DNA from: an uncultured Clostridiaceae bacterium | GTDB taxonomy: Bacteria > Bacillota > Clostridia > Lachnospirales > Lachnospiraceae | Direction: 5' to 3' | NCBI GenBank assembly: GCA_947177415.1 | Contig: CAMWUK010000001.1 | Coordinates: 1 to 64,000, forward strand | Length of the DNA stretch: 64,000 bases | Translations under genes and position numbers: made by a program | In this document: piece by piece, positions 27,855 through 42,550 of the stretch | Position numbering within the stretch: the first letter of the stretch is position 1 | Layout of the letters: each line of letters starts with the position of its first letter | The notes under the pieces: generated by a model | The model's database searches: none | The model's input: the letters and a program-made list of their open reading frames with translations, nothing else | Told to the model about the DNA's origin: nothing

Positions 27855-28463
27855 TCATTCGCTGTCGGCATTCCCCCTTTCACTGCCATAGTCCTTAACC
27901 GGGACACATTTGCAGACAAATCTTCTTGTCCCGTGGTCAGCACAGGTAAACAGGGTAAGCATCTCTGTACCGCTTTCTTCCGTTACCCATTCATCATAGG
28001 GATTTACCACCCGCATTTCTTCCACCGTATAACTGTGCGTCGTGCCTGCTTTCGTGGTTATCTTTACCTCCGTCCCTGTCCTGACACTGCTAAGGTTGGT
28101 AAAAAAAGTCCCCCGCCTGCTGCCGTTATGCCCGGCAAGGACACAATTCCCTTTGTCACACAAAGGTGCGCTGCTCTCCATGTGTCCGATCCCCTCATTT
28201 AACTGCACCGCGCCTGTCCCCTCAAATACCGGGTATTTTATTTTCAGGTCCGGTATCTCAACAATCCCGATGGCACCCTCCGCCAGATATGGGGAAGCCT
28301 TCTTTTTACGGTTGCCGGTTTCTTCACTCTCCTCATCTTCTTCCTCCTCAAACTGATTGATATACTGGTCTGCCCTCTGCTGCTCCCGCATCCGCAGAAA
28401 AAAAGGGACAGCCGCAATGGCTATCCCAATCAGAATTAACATGACTGTTTTTTTACTTCTCAA
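27855..28463 (-). CDS. Sortase
   Basis: N-terminal [24 protein letters not shown] (TLxTC-type). Confidence 0.9.
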
Positions 28464-31400
28464 CGGTTTTCCTCCCTTTTTGTCCCATACTCATATGACG
28501 GTTCCGCCACATGGCTGATCTCCGGTTCCTGTTCTTCCTCTTTTGGTGTCTGGTTTTCCATATCCAGCAGATTGTTTAACTCAAACTGCCTTGCCAGCTT
28601 TGTTTTCAATTCTTCTTCATACTGGAATGGCTTATCATATTCTAACTTTGCCTGTTCCATATCAAGGCGGTATTTCTCCAGCCTTTCCTCAAGAAAACCA
28701 ATGTTTCCCTGAATCCCGTTAAAGAGATTTTCCAGCTTTGTCATGCAGCCGACCGGGGAGGTTGACATATCTGCCTTATACTCTGTATTTCCCCGCAGTA
28801 CCAGATAATCCGCCCCCATAAAGTTCTTTTCCACAAGGACAGAAAAACCTTTGTACTCTGCCAGTTCGGTTGTTGTCCCCGTCTTGCATTTACCGGCAGC
28901 AGACAGAAAGGCAGTGCCGCCGTCCACCCTCTCTGTAAACGTCATCCCGCCTACTTTAATGGAAAACTCTGCCCCGGCAATCAGTCTTTTGTCACGTTCC
29001 CTGACATCCTCATGGACACATTTTAACTTTTCTTCTGCTGCTGCAATCAGTTTCGGGAATTTCACCATAAAACTGTCCTGCATGGCATAATGCTGGCTGT
29101 CATAAGTTGCCCTTAACATTTTGAGCCGCTGCACATCATTATCAATCTCCATCTTTTCTTTTATCATCGGGTTGCCTGTCGCCACCGCTTTTATCTCTGC
29201 ATAGGAAAGGGTTGCCTCATCTATATCCTCGCAGGTCCTTGAAACAGATTTTCCTGTCATTACCTGCGAAATAAAACGCTGCTTGTTCTCGACCAGCGCC
29301 CAACTGTAAGCGTCAAAGGTTCCTTTGGTCACATAACGGTACACGGCAACCTCATCATTTTCATTGCCCTGCCGCAGTCCCCTTCCCTCGCGCTGTTCTA
29401 TACTTGAGGGTTTCCACGGGCAGTCGCAGTGGTGCATGGCAACAAGGTGTGTCTGCACATTTACGCCGGTACCGCATTTGTCAGTAGAGCCAATCAGCAC
29501 TTTTTTTGTGCCGGAACGCATTTCACGGAACAGGGCATCCCTCTGTGCGTCAGTTTTGCAGTCATGTATAAATGCAATTTCCTCCGCAGGGATGCCCTGT
29601 TTTACCAGTTCCGTTTTGATATAGTTATAAACATCAAATGTCCCTGTCTCATGCCACGGTGTCGTCAGCATTTCCTCCGACCACGCCCGTTTCGGTGTGC
29701 CGATATCAGAAAAAATAAGCTGTGTGCCAATCTTTCCCTCGTTCTCCGCCTTATGGTATTCATACAGCACATTTTCCACCACTTTGTTTAACTTGCCGTC
29801 CGCGCTTTCCGGCGCATCCGGGGTTAAAAGCCTTGCATCTGTTCCTAACAGCCTTGCCTCATGGGTGATTTTAAGAAAATTATCGACCTTCGGATCGACC
29901 CTCCCATTACGGATTGCCTCCGCCCTCTGGACAAAAGTTTCCATTACCTGTTTCACATACCAGTCCGGCTCACTCTCCACAATGATATATTTCCCATCCC
30001 GCAGCTCCGGGGTGTCAAGTTCAAGCATGTCCCTTGTCTGGATATCCGCTGTCTCCCGAAAGATATTCATTAACTCCGGCAGGTTGGTAAACTTGTTAAA
30101 CCTTGTCTTAAAGCGGAACCCGCTCCCCTCCACAGTCAGTTCCAGCGCCGTTGTCTGCTCCCCGAAGTTTGCCGCCCAACTGTCAAAGTGGTAAATCCCA
30201 AGCTGCTCCAATGTGTCCTTCTGAAGGAACTGCTGCATGACATACATTTCCACCATCGTATTGCTGATCGGCGTCCCCGTGGCGAACACAACGCCCCTGC
30301 CGCCATTTATCTCATTGATATACTGGCATTTCAGGTACATGTCCATTGCCCTCTGGCTGCCGCTGCCGGTTATCCCCGACACGTTCATCTTTGAAAATAC
30401 GGCAAGATTCTTGAATGCGTGCGCCTCGTCCACCATGATGGAATCAATGCCAAGTTCCTCAAAGGTAATGAGGTCATCTTTCCGTATCTCATCCGCCATT
30501 TTCTGGAGCTGCTCCTCCATCCGCGCTTTCTGTGCCTCCATCTGCTTGATGGTCCAACGTTCCTGATTGCGTTCTTTCATTTCCGCAATGGCAAAATTTA
30601 TATCATCTATCTGGCGGTTTAACAGCATTTCCCTCCGTTCCTTTGATACCGGAATTCTCTCAAATTGGGAGTGCGACATGATAATGCAGTCATAATCCCC
30701 GGTGGCAATGCGGGAGATAAACTGTTTCCTTCTCTTTTTCTCAAAATCCCTCTCCGTTGCCACTAAAATATTTGCAGAGGGATAAAGACGTAAAAATTCA
30801 CTGGCCGTCTGCCCGATCAGAGGCTTTGGCACGACCATTGCCGTCTTGTTTGCAAGCCCAAGGCGTTTCTGTTCCATACATGCCGCCATCATTTCAAAAG
30901 ATTTCCCCGCCCCGACACAGTGGGCAAGCAGCGTATTACCGCCCATGAGTATCCTTGCCACCGCATTTTTCTGGTGCTGCTTTAACTTTATATCCGGGTT
31001 CATGCCCGGAAACTGTAAATGGCTGCCATCATACTCACGCAGCCTGACATTGTTAAAAGTTTCATTATAATATCTGATATATTTATTTCTCCGCTCCGGC
31101 TCTGCAAATATCCAGCTGCGGAATGCCTCCTTTAACTGGTTCTGCTTCTCCCTTGCAAGCATGGTTTCTTTCTGGTTCGTTTCATAATGGTATTTTCCCT
31201 GTCCATCCTCAATGCGGTCCCTGACCGTTACCGTGCGGAGGTTTAAGGTATTCTCAAAAATCGTGTAGGCATCCATCCTTGACGTCCCATAGGTTTTTGT
31301 TGCCGCCACGGAAGTTTTGTCAAGGGATTTATTCTCCACAAACCACTCCATCTGGAATTTATTTAACTGCACCTGTATCCCGGAAGTGCCATAGGCATAT

Positions 31401-34400
31401 CTCCTTGCCTGCGCCCGTTCCGGCGTGTGCAGGGTTTCATAAAGGAATCTCTCATAATCCTCCGGCTCAATCCATGTCGTGCCGATCCGCACGTCAATCT
31501 CCCCGGCATCCAGATCCTGCGGCTGTACCTGCTCCAACGCTGCCACGTTGTCCCCGAACAGTTCAGGGTGTTCCCCTGCTGCTGCCTTTGCCACACGCAG
31601 CTTGTCCCTGACATTTCCGGACAAATATTCATCCGCTGTTTCCCATCCCTGGTTTCCGTCATGCGGAAGATATTTCTGCGGGTTTAAGAAAATAATGCCT
31701 TTCAGTTCTTCCACCAGCTTTGCCCTCTTTAGTTCCCTTCCGGCATCTTCTGAAAGAATAATATCTCCCGAAGTGTCTGCCTGTTCTTCCCTGAGTTTTT
31801 CCACCTGCCCGCTGATGTCCGGCTCATAAATCTCCAGCATATACGGAAGGTTGACACCGTTATATTCACATACGGAAAGGTTGAGCGCCTCCACCGCTGT
31901 CTCCGCATGGTCCGTTTCCCTCCTTGCCCGGATCGTCTGCTTTGTGAACATATCCGCTTTCGTGACAGTGCCTTTTTCCTCGTCCACCATTTCCAGTGAA
32001 CATAAAAGAGGGTAATCCTCGTCGTCCCGAAAGGCCCTTGAATTACCCTGTGAAGTGATATAACCATATTTTTTTATATACCTGTCATAAACAGCATTTA
32101 ATTCTCCCTGCGCTGCCTTTAGTTCCTCCTCACTGCAGCCGTTTAACTGAATGTCTATCAGGCGTCTGGTGCATTTCCGTATCCCATCCATTCCCTTTAT
32201 CCTGTCAAGCACGGTATTCCCCACCTCCTGCCGGTACATTCTGGAATCTTTCCGGTAATACAGTGTCCCGTCCACAAACGTGTAGGTGTAATTCTTCACG
32301 TCCGGATCAGCCGGGATGCTCTCCTCCGGTTCCTCCTCCTGTAAAACTTCATAATCCGGTATCTGTACGGAAAGGTGGCTTACTGCCTGCTGCAATGCCC
32401 CGTACAGGTCAAAATCTTCCTCCTCATTGACGCACACCGTATAACTGGAATCACTGCCATACCTGCCGGTATCATATTCCATATGCCCTAACATCATTTC
32501 CGGATGTTCCACGAAATACGAGTTGACCGATACCCCGTTTTCCGTCATGCCAAGATGAACCCAGCCCGGCTCCACTGATATTTTCCGCTCCCTTTTCTGG
32601 AAGAATAAAATATCACTGGTAACCTCCGTCCCTGCCTCTGCCTTGAAAGCACTGTTCGGCAGCCTGACCGCACCGACCAGCTCTGCACGCTCCGCCAGAT
32701 ATTTCCGGACACTGTTATTTTTCTTGTCCATTGTCCCTTTTGTGGTAATCACGGCAACAATGCCGCCCGGCCTTACCTTGTCAATGGACTTTGCCACAAA
32801 GTAATCGTGTATCTTGAAATTCTCCGCATTGTACTTCCTGTCATAAACCTTAAAGTCCCCAAAAGGCACGTTACCGACTACCACATCAAAAAAGTTATCC
32901 GTAAAGTCCGTTTCCTCAAATCCCTTTACCTGTATATCCGCCTGTGGGTACAAAAGTTTTGCAATCCTGCCGCTGATACTGTCCTTTTCCACACCAAAAA
33001 GCCTGCTGCCCCGCAACTGCTCCGGCATGGTCCCAAAAAAATGGCCTGTCCCCATTGACGGCTCCAGCACATTCCCGCCCTGAAACCCGAACTGCACCAG
33101 TGCATTTCCCACGGCAGCGGCTATCTCCGGCGGCGTGTAAAAAGCTGTCGTGACCGTTGCCCTCGCCTCCCGGTATTCCTCCGGGGTAAGAAGCTCTTTC
33201 AGTTCTGCATATTCTTTATGCCAGCTTTCGCTTTTTTCATCAAATGCCTGTGAAGTGCCGCCCCACCCGGCATACCTTGCAAGGATTTCCTGCTCCTCCG
33301 GTGTGGCGTTCCTGCCCTCTGCCTCCACCTGTTTTAAGGTTCTGACTGCCTCCACATTCCACTTATAGCGCGCCTTTTGCCCGCCGATCTCCTGATTGTG
33401 GATGTCAATGACATAGTTATGGGACTGTCCTGCCTTTTCGTTTCCGGTATCTGCTGCCACTGGACTCTGATCTTTTTCTCCAATACCGGCAGGCTCTGAA
33501 AACGGATTTTCTTCTGCCTGCTCCTGTAATCCCTGCCCCTTCTCCCGTTCTGCCTGTTCAAAACGCACGGCATCCGGTATCCCCATCTGATCTGCCTCGT
33601 CAGGAATGGCAAAATCATCAAAAGGCTCCTCCTCCGGTTCTGCTGTCTGGTACGGTTCTTCCTCCCCATCGTCAATCCCTGTTTCCTTGTAATCAAAAAG
33701 AGAAGCCTGTCTGAAAACGGCTTCCCTCTCTGTACCGAATGAATTTAAGTCATCCAGCTCTTTATTTAATTCTTCCTGTGTTTCTAATGAAACTGGTTTA
33801 TCAGGTCGTGACGGATGATTTCCTCTGCCTCCATCATCCCCTGTTTCCTGATGCGGAACATCTCCATTGTGGAATTTGGATTCTCCGGCCTGTGTTTTTC
33901 CAGATACTTCTCCATGAGGCTTTCCAGCATCCTGTTTGCCTCCTCCTCCACTTCTTTCAGTTTCGTGTAGAGGTTCCCGAACCTTACCAGGCTCCGGTAT
34001 CTCTGCGGGTAATTTTCCTCCAGATACTCCCTCGCCATGATTCCGAACTTCCCTAATGTCCCTGTTTCTGTCTGCCCTGCTGCCTTGATGTCCGGGTACA
34101 GCATCCCGTCCTCCCCTTCGTGGTAGCTGATTGCCAGTGTTTCCATAACGCACCTTCCTTTCCTTCTCAATACTCATGATTTCGCGGTTCATATTCCGAA
34201 GAACAGTACAGGATACGTCACTTACCAGAGTACCAAGTACGCTAATGCAGCCCTCATCTTTCACATTAACTATTGCACCTAAGTCCAGTTCTCCGCTACT
34301 TAAGTCAAATCCGCATCTTGTCCCCACCGCATAGAAAATGCTGTTAAATATCAATTTCTGTGCGGCAGGCTCTGGCGTTTCATTCTCTCCGCCGGTTATC

Positions 34401-34912
34401 TCACGTCCTGCAAGCATGGCGGCCTCGGCAAATCGCTTACCGAAGTCCTCTTTTAGAATACCGCGCACTTCCTGCTTTGTAAAGGCTTTTAACTGTTCTA
34501 ACTGGCTTTTTCTGTCTGTTTTTGGTTCTTCAGAGGTCTCTCCCCGTTTCCAGAGTGCCGACAGCAAATCCGGCAGGTTCTCCCCCTCCAAATCCCATGT
34601 CAGCTTAACATTCCTGCCCCCGGTGTCGCCAATGTCAAACACATAGCGCAGCTCCGGCTTTAATGCCCTTGACGGAAAGATGGCAATGCCCCTGCTGCCC
34701 CGTTTGACATAGCGGTGTACTTTTTTCCATGTGTCATAGTCTGCAACCAGCGTGGCAGACGGATTCTGCGCATACACCATAAGCACGTTGTCAAACTCAT
34801 ACCGGTATATCTGCCCTGCCAGACGGCAGACCGCTTTCCAGTCTGCCTCCGTCCGTGTTACCCTTGAAATAACATCCTGATAAATCTGGCGGGCCATATA
34901 TTCTACGCCCAT
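28460..34912 (-). CDS. 2150-aa ArdC-like / DNA methylase / SNF2-type helicase fusion
   Basis: N-term [86 protein letters not shown]. Confidence 0.93.
33784..34146 (-). CDS. tnpV: TnpV-family-like protein nested in a different frame of the 2150-aa gene
   Basis: [20 protein letters not shown]...[50 protein letters not shown]...[24 protein letters not shown] 6 nt before ATG. Confidence 0.7.
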
Positions 34913-34924
34913 ACGCTGCTCCCC

Positions 34925-35800
34925 CTATCTGCTTTCCGCCTTTGCTGGGAGGTAGGAAACGTCCCTAAAATCCTCCGCATCCAAGACAATCTCTGAATGT
35001 TTATACAGCTCCATTGCCTTGTCAATGGCATCCCCTAATGTTTCCGCCGGAATGATTTCAACCCTTGATAATACCTCACGGATTTCAATAGGAAAACTGT
35101 TTCCTTTCTGCTCATAAGGCTCACAAAACTCTGCCCGTAGTGCCGCAAAATCAATATCCGACGGTCTGGCAGAAAGATACTCTCCACGATCCCATTGAAT
35201 CCCCGTCTCTGCATTATCCTTTGTATGCTCCCCCGCATGAGGATAACGCTCATAATACGCCACTCCCACCGCTACCATGAAAGCTCCCGACGCCATGTTC
35301 ATCATCAGAAAATTTTTTTTACTATAACACTCTATAACTTTGTAATCCGTCCCGTTAAAGTTGTGCAGGACTTCCCCCGACTGAAACTCATGCTCCCTCT
35401 GCTTATAATGGAACATGAAACCTTTTGCTGCCCCATTCACATCAAGATTGTATTCCTCCAATGCCCACATGCATTCCCTGCTGCTTTCTTTCCTGTCAAA
35501 CCGGAACTCTTTATCGTCATTGTAACTGCCGTGGAGGAAACACTGCAATTCATCACTGCCGCTACAGAATTTCGCATAATAGCTTTTATTTGCCGTAATA
35601 TACCTCTCTGCCCATCCGGTTCCTGCCCCGGACAGTTTTGTGTCAAACAGCTCTTTCAATGCCTGTGCCGACTCCTCCCTTGATAAACATGACACAAAGA
35701 GATACGCCTCTTTGTACTCTTTCAATGTCATCAGCATATTTTTTTCGTTGCCTTTGGTGTTCTCTATCACAAGAACCATATCCTGTATTTTCATATACAT
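34925..35800 (-). CDS. Conserved ICE hypothetical protein
   Basis: Paralogue of 35871-36746; TLGDAIDKAMELYKHSEI tail. Confidence 0.75.
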   Translation of the reverse strand: MYMKIQDMVLVIENTKGNEKNMLMTLKEYKEAYLFVSCLSREESAQALKELFDTKLSGAGTGWAERYITANKSYYAKFCSGSDELQCFLHGSYNDDKEFRFDRKESSRECMWALEEYNLDVNGAAKGFMFHYKQREHEFQSGEVLHNFNGTDYKVIECYSKKNFLMMNMASGAFMVAVGVAYYERYPHAGEHTKDNAETGIQWDRGEYLSARPSDIDFAALRAEFCEPYEQKGNSFPIEIREVLSRVEIIPAETLGDAIDKAMELYKHSEIVLDAEDFRDVSYLPAKAESR

Positions 35801-35870: not shown

Positions 35871-36746
35871 TTACCTCCTCATATCATTCAATGTCGGGTG
35901 CCTTGTCATCTGTTGTGTTTGCCCGCTATTGTCAATCTGAGATTTTTGATATATTTCCATTGCCCGGTCAATCGCCTCCCCAAGACTTCCGTCCGGCATA
36001 TCCCCGGCTTTTGAAATTGCGTCCTGTATCTTTTCCTCCGTACTTTTCTCCACCGGTTCCATTCCTCTCTCCCCGTATTCTTCCTTTAGTGCCTTGAAGT
36101 CAAGTTGTGACGGAACCGGGTTGAGGTAAACCGCCTGTTTCCATTTTATCCCCGTCTCCCTGTTTTCCTTTGAGGCTCTCCCGGCATAAGGATAACGGTC
36201 ATAACATTTCACATCCACTGCCACCAGAAGTTTTCCTGTTTTCTGGTTTAACAGCAGAAGGTTATTCTGGCTGTAGCATTCCAGCACCCGGTAATCCGCC
36301 CTGTCAAAATCCTGTAAAACCTTGCCTTGCTCAAATAAGCTTTCCTGTTCCTCATACCGGAAGGAATCCCCCATAGAAACCCCGTTACGGTCAATATTGT
36401 GTTCCCCTAATACTCTGAGGCACTCATCACTGCACCTGTCAGCATCAAGATACCATTCCGGCCAGCTATTGAAATGCCCGTGGAGAAAATCCTTCAGGTC
36501 CTGCTCATCATGGCAGAACCGCACATCATAACCATAATCCTTTCCGTGGTCAATCTTTGCCCACGCCTCCTTATCCTCCCTCTGCGTCAGTATTTTCTCT
36601 ATATGCCTTGCTGCCTGGTCCATTGTCTGGCACCAGTAGTACAGAACCCTTTCCCTGTACTCCCCGAATGTCATAAGCATATTGGTTTCTGCGTCTTTAC
36701 GGTGGGCTATGACAAAAAGCATGTCATTTAACCTCATGCAGCTCAC
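35871..36746 (-). CDS. Conserved ICE hypothetical protein, tandem paralogue
   Basis: NMLMTFGEYRERV; SLGEAIDRAMEIYQKSQI. Confidence 0.75.
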   Translation of the reverse strand: MSCMRLNDMLFVIAHRKDAETNMLMTFGEYRERVLYYWCQTMDQAARHIEKILTQREDKEAWAKIDHGKDYGYDVRFCHDEQDLKDFLHGHFNSWPEWYLDADRCSDECLRVLGEHNIDRNGVSMGDSFRYEEQESLFEQGKVLQDFDRADYRVLECYSQNNLLLLNQKTGKLLVAVDVKCYDRYPYAGRASKENRETGIKWKQAVYLNPVPSQLDFKALKEEYGERGMEPVEKSTEEKIQDAISKAGDMPDGSLGEAIDRAMEIYQKSQIDNSGQTQQMTRHPTLNDMRR

Positions 36747-41566: not shown

Positions 41567-42550
41567 TTACTGGTTCCTCTCCGGACAGAATGACGCACAC
41601 CTGCCGGTCTCAATATCCGCAATACATTTCAGTATCGGGTAAGCCTGCTGCGGCACCACCGCATTCCCAAGTGAAAACATACGGCTGCCCCACAGCGGAT
41701 GCGCCTCTGCAATGCGGCTTACCCCTTCCGGCTCCCGTTCCCACTGCCTGTGTCCGTCCATCCAATGGGGAAGCCCATCAGCCATTCCACCCAGTCCGGG
41801 TTGATTTTGTGCTGTTTCATGGACAGGTCCACGACTTCCGTAAACAGCTCCTTCTGTTCCTCCGTCTCCGGTTCGTGAAACTCCGTTCCCGTCTGCTCCA
41901 TCACTTCCGGGGTGCAGAACACTTTCATCTGCAGGTTTGGCTGCCAAAGCGTCCCCGTTGAGTTGAGTTTCTTTAACGTCCCCGTTTTTTTCATCCTGCC
42001 AATGAGGGCAGTGGAAACATCCATCTTCCCAATGGAAGCCACCGGCGTCGGCCAGGTGTCCGGCAATGAATACCCGTTTCCTCTCATGCCACGCGCCGAC
42101 GGCGAGAGCAGGTAGTACGAAGGCCCGGACTTCATAGCCTGCTCCTTCCAGATCAGAAACCGTCTTTTCGAGCCCCATGTTGAGGAACCCAGCAACATTT
42201 TCTCCAAGCACCCAAGCGGGGGAGAGCTCTTTGATGACTCTAAGCATTTCCGGCCAGAGGTAACGGTCATCTTCAAAGCCCCTTCGCTTCCCGGCAAAGG
42301 AAAACGGCTGACAGGGGAATCCCCCTGAGATAAGTGTGACATTGTGTTCGTTTGTTCTCGCATAAAACTCCTCCTTGTTCAAATCCCTGATGTCCTTAAA
42401 TCTCGGCACATCTTTCCAATGTTTTTGTAATATCTCATTCTGAAAATCAGCCCATTCGCACTGTGCAACGGTGCGGAACCCTGCCGCCTCCGCCGCAAGG
42501 TCAAGCCCGCCAATGCCGGTAAACAGGCTGATGTGTGTTAAATCCTGCAT
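41567..42550 (-). CDS. dcm: DNA cytosine-5 methyltransferase
   Basis: [60 protein letters not shown]. Confidence 0.94.
41719..42363 (-). CDS. 214-codon ORF nested in an alternate frame of dcm (putative overprinted gene)
   Basis: Perfect AAGGAGG 6 nt before [47 protein letters not shown]...[19 protein letters not shown]-type motif. Confidence 0.55.

Follow-up and report, generated by a model that had tools for sequence, protein, structure and literature searches.

Bacterial genes nested in another gene on the same strand are considered uncommon and are frequently dropped by automatic annotation (PMC12350097). The locus studied here, on the minus strand of a 64,000-nucleotide stretch of DNA from an uncultured Clostridiaceae bacterium (the window), raises the question of whether a giant methylase-helicase gene also encodes a second protein in another frame and, if so, how the two products are related.

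A TnpV-family gene lies within a DarB-like methylase-helicase gene

The enclosing open reading frame (28460-34912, minus strand) encodes 2150 amino acids, arranged as an ArdC-N-like part, a linker, a DarB-like N6-adenine methylase and an SNF2 helicase. Its ArdC-N-like N-terminal region (34148-34912, minus strand; residues 1-255) is indicated by an alignment and by a match to PF08401 (ArdC-N) on residues 8-79, which at 20.4 bits (E 6e-4) falls just below the cut-off of 22.6. The linker follows (33784-34147, minus strand; residues 256-377), and the methylase core lies at 32588-33190 on the same strand. Matches to the Pfam families Eco57I, SNF2 and Helicase_C indicate an adenine methylase and an SNF2-type helicase in one chain, and sequence searches revealed homology to DarB-like proteins of phages and plasmids, including P1 DarB. 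DarB-like methylase-helicases are thought to protect incoming DNA from restriction. Neighbouring genes encode a VirD4-type coupling protein, a MobA/VirD2-type relaxase, a TraG-type ATPase, an NlpC/P60 protein and Dcm, a neighbourhood that is, judging by gene content, that of a conjugative element. In its adenine methylase, SNF2 helicase and conjugative context, and tentatively in its ArdC-N-like header, the protein resembles the DarB-like polyvalent proteins described previously (PMC5512222); the text of that paper, however, mentions neither TnpV nor an overlapping gene. The genome from which the window comes contains three host genes of this kind. A tandem pair of similar 291-residue proteins is encoded immediately upstream of the one in the window (34925-35800 and 35871-36746, minus strand).

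The original prediction had placed a TnpV-like gene at 33784-34170 on the minus strand, in a different frame from the enclosing gene. On examination the gene, its nesting and its family resemblance all stood, while its 5' end had to be moved: the list of open reading frames gives 33784-34170 because of an upstream TTG, whereas the intended start is the ATG at 34146. The resulting 120-residue tnpV gene (33784-34146, minus strand; stop codon TAG at 33784-33786) lies wholly inside the 2150-residue frame, out of frame with it, over host residues 256-377. When the alternate frame was searched with the PF14198 (TnpV) profile, it scored 84.1 bits (E 8.6e-24), far above the Pfam gathering cut-off of 27, and the match was nearly full-length (profile positions 5-111 of 111), placing the product in the TnpV family; a search of NCBIfam with the nested protein gave no match. 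Known PF14198 members (Tn4451 family) have been described as separate genes, unlike this one, which sits out of frame within another gene.

AlphaFold modelling of the TnpV frame yielded two short strands and four helices, with a long helical hairpin (pLDDT 89). In the host frame, residues 258-378, matching the overlap, were modelled without secondary structure at a pLDDT of about 30, within an N-terminal model that is poor overall (mean pLDDT 46, only 15 sequences). The host-frame peptide is rich in G, R, S and P, with 13.5% glycine in the overlap vs 5.8% in the rest of the host and 10.7% arginine vs 5.4%, in keeping with the earlier description of the enclosing frame as a low-complexity linker.

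The nested gene has its own start signal

The nested gene has a translation signal of its own, comprising a Shine-Dalgarno-like site and an ATG. As originally proposed, an SD-like AAGGAAGG lies a few bases 5' of the ATG at 34146; the site, mapped as AAGGAAAGGAAGG at 34153-34165 (minus strand), has a duplex energy of -9.1 kcal/mol (row L062). A GAAAGGAG-type site is conserved before nested ATGs (median -8.2 kcal/mol), and an SD energy of -6 kcal/mol or lower was found at 93% of nested ATGs vs 11% of 4,902 out-of-frame control ATGs. The enrichment persisted when starts were picked blind to the SD (64% vs 8%, p 1e-12).

Both frames are kept open across divergent relatives

The two frames are open beyond chance across divergent relatives, in line with dual coding. 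Host genes were taken from open reading frames longer than 350 residues, and for all full-length ArdC-N matches with E <1e-40 the surrounding open frame spans 384 residues or more. Across 33 nested lineages less than 60% identical to one another, TnpV was reshuffled synonymously using the host's own codon usage; 256 host-frame stops were expected over TnpV and none was observed. The third frame was not depleted of stops (407 observed vs 322 expected), and the corresponding frame of 28 stand-alone TnpV genes contained 154, with 203 expected. At the level of single codons, a third-position T preceded AA, AG or GA codons in none of 1102 cases, as against 355 of 2252 in other contexts. In the reverse test the host peptides predicted 70 TnpV-frame stops, and again none was found. 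The log-probabilities of these tests are only indicative because the lineages were treated as independent; the zero counts hold regardless. The host frame over tnpV is stop-free in 83 nested homologues. Together, the stop statistics and the profile match rule out a chance open reading frame as the explanation of tnpV.

The nested frame also bears the mark of purifying selection, which the codon-position check suggested at the outset confirmed: between 61 pairs of close relatives, which share sequences and are therefore not independent, changes at TnpV codon positions 1, 2 and 3 numbered 541, 358 and 1278. Among the pairs listed, of these 61, TnpV identity exceeded host-peptide identity on the same DNA. 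Fourfold-site divergence was 0.20 in the overlap, vs 0.26 upstream and 0.32 downstream, which points to mild extra constraint. As read from these comparisons and the predicted structures, both frames are held open by selection, TnpV being the putatively structured, constrained product and the host frame a tolerant, predicted disordered linker.

The nested arrangement recurs in plasmids and across phyla

Relatives of the nested protein, sought in 84,980 species genomes and confirmed by tblastn, yielded 24 loci; at 20 of these the same host frame continues across TnpV, with the relation between the two frames unchanged, in relatives as low as 45% identical. So that hosts would not be chosen by their TnpV, we also searched whole genomes for hosts using the ArdC-N part alone and, separately, the methylase core alone. 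Wherever a TnpV was present downstream of ArdC-N in hosts found by ArdC-N, it lay within the host frame at an identical offset. A TnpV lies upstream of the methylase in the same open reading frame for 89 of 102 distinct methylase domains, every one of the 89 at offset +1; of the remaining 13, L024 is truncated within TnpV by the end of its contig. A methylase-only search of 300 genomes of the phylum gave 23 strong matches, of which 21 had the nested TnpV, one began at a contig edge and one was without. Five hosts lacking a first-pass profile match (L073, L183 and L185-L187) were initially candidates for hosts without TnpV, and were dropped as such when a divergent TnpV in the same frame was recognised by eye in each.

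The layout is found in plasmids of Listeria, Enterococcus, Virgibacillus, Anaerococcus and Selenomonas, and nested copies occur in both Bacillota and Actinomycetota, with a match at E 2e-5 in Microbacterium and a weak one in Arthrobacter. The nested frame keeps its place just upstream of the methylase even in those hosts from Actinomycetota and phages in which no ArdC-N was detected. Among the relatives examined, no nested TnpV was found in P1 darB, S. suis snf2, Vallitalea, Agrobacterium, Phocaeicola, several Rhodococcus, L191 or L192, and TnpV is therefore not indispensable. The original observation of a nested gene was correct but understated; by these comparisons, the nesting is an ancient and conserved feature of the DarB-like host family, which had not been foreseen.

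Nested and stand-alone TnpV genes interleave

Distances between ArdC-N regions and between nested TnpVs correlate (rho 0.67; Mantel test, value reached in 0 of 999 permutations), indicating that host and nested gene have for the most part been inherited jointly. Stand-alone TnpV genes distant from DarB-like genes are common, which means that TnpV can work without a DarB-like partner in cis. In a TnpV tree built from 114 columns, in which many forks are unresolved and no root was inferred, nested and stand-alone TnpVs interleave (8 changes); the supported clade that holds the window comprises 12 rows, 8 nested and 4 stand-alone, and stand-alone L009 and L021-L023 branch inside a mostly nested clade. 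Our first assumption, that the stand-alone state was ancestral, was dropped in view of this interleaving. From the unrooted tree we infer that stand-alone TnpVs near the window's lineage probably escaped from a nested host, because repeated capture into one position and one frame, with a stop-free partner frame, would be far less likely.

Stand-alone copies in L021, L022 and L023 lie directly upstream of an actin-like gene (ParM/StbA-type, by eye), and this recurring neighbourhood also contains a small gene ending in EENEFLDFSF or similar. In an S. suis record, a TnpV split over two frames (L200:8971-9304) comes just after the snf2 open reading frame.

A putative partner of the methylase-helicase

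The reading that we consider highly probable, from the sequence evidence taken together, is that this is a conserved dual-coding locus in which TnpV is made by internal initiation and may act as a small helical partner or regulator of the methylase-helicase, nearby stand-alone copies having escaped from such a host. We infer that both products are translated, internal initiation yielding TnpV. One mRNA would be translated straight through into the giant DarB-like polyvalent antirestriction protein and, separately, from the internal SD and ATG in the +1 frame, into TnpV. The small helical protein might then hold or escort the methylase-helicase, for example, until DNA transfer and, since both come from the same message, an element would acquire or lose both at once. 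Stand-alone copies close to the window's lineage would have left such a host.

As to function, a role as a small partner or regulator of the methylase-helicase is our tentative preference, held at somewhat below even chances; it is favoured on account of the hosts with no detected ArdC-N, in which the nested gene still goes with the methylase-helicase. An excision role, based on homology with lambda Xis, was postulated for TnpV of Tn4451 (PMC3158075), and the nested protein could likewise be an excision factor (Xis/RDF-like), the nesting being a compact packing of two unrelated functions of an integrative and conjugative element (ICE). In favour of this, stand-alone TnpV genes in mobilisable elements or plasmids have recombinase, relaxase and regulator genes as neighbours. 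However, when the PDB was searched with the predicted TnpV fold, nothing matched at E <= 0.001 and the matches listed included no Xis; the nested gene also accompanies the DarB-like methylase on plasmids and in phages. These results make an excision role unlikely. A PDB sequence search with TnpV returned nothing convincing, and the best viral fold matches were weak (E 0.16 and 0.57). The 'transposon' label of TnpV is probably misleading, since the nested gene follows the DarB-like methylase-helicase. With the partner role, TnpV gains a testable partner.

Phage and Campylobacter counterparts

DarB-like genes of the phages Burkholderia DC1, Erwinia PEp14, Klebsiella SJM3 and Sinorhizobium PBC5 contain TnpV-like open reading frames immediately ahead of the methylase, with the offset unchanged (L208:3435-3758, L211:2402-2719, L212:2414-2740 and, for PBC5, L210:2928-3236). 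These copies match the TnpV profile weakly, with E 6e-6 for DC1 in a search of four sequences and 9e-7 for PEp14 against a profile that already included DC1. Homologues of the PEp14 frame recur in 21 phage records.

In PBC5 the annotated upstream orf33 continues in frame into the TnpV-like segment, with the methylase frame overlapping in the other frame, and the family phrog_938 ends in a TnpV-like stretch; both would suit programmed frameshifting, in which TnpV would be added to the C terminus of the upstream part instead of arising by internal initiation. Such a mechanism is improbable given the strong, conserved SD and ATG at nested starts and, in the window, a TnpV frame that is open for only 24 nt before the ATG, with no slippery heptamer there by eye. 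Either a natural frameshift variant or an error of sequencing could account for the run-in of PBC5 orf33.

DarB-like genes of Campylobacter plasmids carry, in the same frame and place, a nested 158-residue open reading frame of another family, unrelated-looking to TnpV, which in a Campylobacter jejuni plasmid (L207:3288-3764) has the SD AAGGAG. It is present in 212 plasmid records, including Helicobacter, and is 37% identical in Helicobacter suis. We see about even odds that a hidden nested gene is an ancient, standing component of a DarB-like antirestriction dyad in ICEs, plasmids and phages, with the linker before the methylase as its coding space, filled in some lineages, such as the Campylobacter and Helicobacter plasmids, by unrelated small proteins, and with the stand-alone TnpVs of transposons as escapees.

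Annotation and relation to known overlapping genes

RefSeq entries usually either leave TnpV unlisted or shorten the host. The Listeria, Enterococcus, Virgibacillus and Anaerococcus records annotate the SNF2/helicase protein alone; in those of Selenomonas and Arthrobacter TnpV is annotated and the host begins after it, though the open frame runs on upstream; and in the Microbacterium record the host is shortened in the same way, the nested gene being entered as a hypothetical protein. The RefSeq helicase starts after the nested gene in L196:2901-10142, L203:3179-8590 and L199:1876-7779, dropping the upstream open frame (with the ArdC-N, in L196).

In another reading, ArdC-N, TnpV and the methylase-helicase are three products and the through-frame is without meaning; in its favour, RefSeq gives Selenomonas and Arthrobacter a separate TnpV and a host that begins after it. 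This reading is very hard to reconcile with the complete avoidance of host-frame stops and with open frames that in both records continue upstream through TnpV, and we regard it as highly improbable. A recent insertion, in which a TnpV-bearing element landed in an snf2 gene and left the frame open by luck, has a precedent in integrative and mobilisable elements (IMEs) with TnpV that integrate in snf2 of S. suis ICEs (PMC9815147), but is scarcely credible and was rejected for the family as a whole, given the same position and frame without stops in 33 lineages less than 60% identical and in several phyla, the agreeing host and TnpV distances, and a TnpV that, in the S. suis locus examined, lies outside the snf2 frame and is split.

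We found no report in the literature of a TnpV nested in the DarB-like family, which is weak evidence of absence, most subscription journals having been outside the scope of the search; among the titles and abstracts listed for overlapping genes together with antirestriction or conjugative elements, there was no such report. Of the overlapping genes cited in PMC12350097, the closest parallels are comS, a same-strand, out-of-frame gene within the giant srfA gene of Bacillus subtilis, and olg1 and olg2 of Pseudomonas aeruginosa, long bacterial overlapping genes reported, in a title cited there, to be translated and under purifying selection. In contrast to comS, tnpV has 120 codons, belongs to a Pfam family and is conserved across phyla; in contrast to olg1 and olg2, its product falls in a widespread Pfam family and the enclosing frame is predicted to be unstructured over the overlap. 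The comS gene is much smaller than the 120-codon tnpV. What emerges is a Pfam-family protein of 120 codons encoded within a giant gene in several phyla and supported by evidence in both frames; databases systematically omit it or shorten the host.

A candidate second nested gene lies elsewhere in the window, where dcm (41567-42550, minus strand; PF00145, covered to residue 185) contains a 214-residue out-of-frame open reading frame (41719-42363, minus strand) that matches the PHROG DNA methyltransferase family phrog_1008 (E 7e-25).
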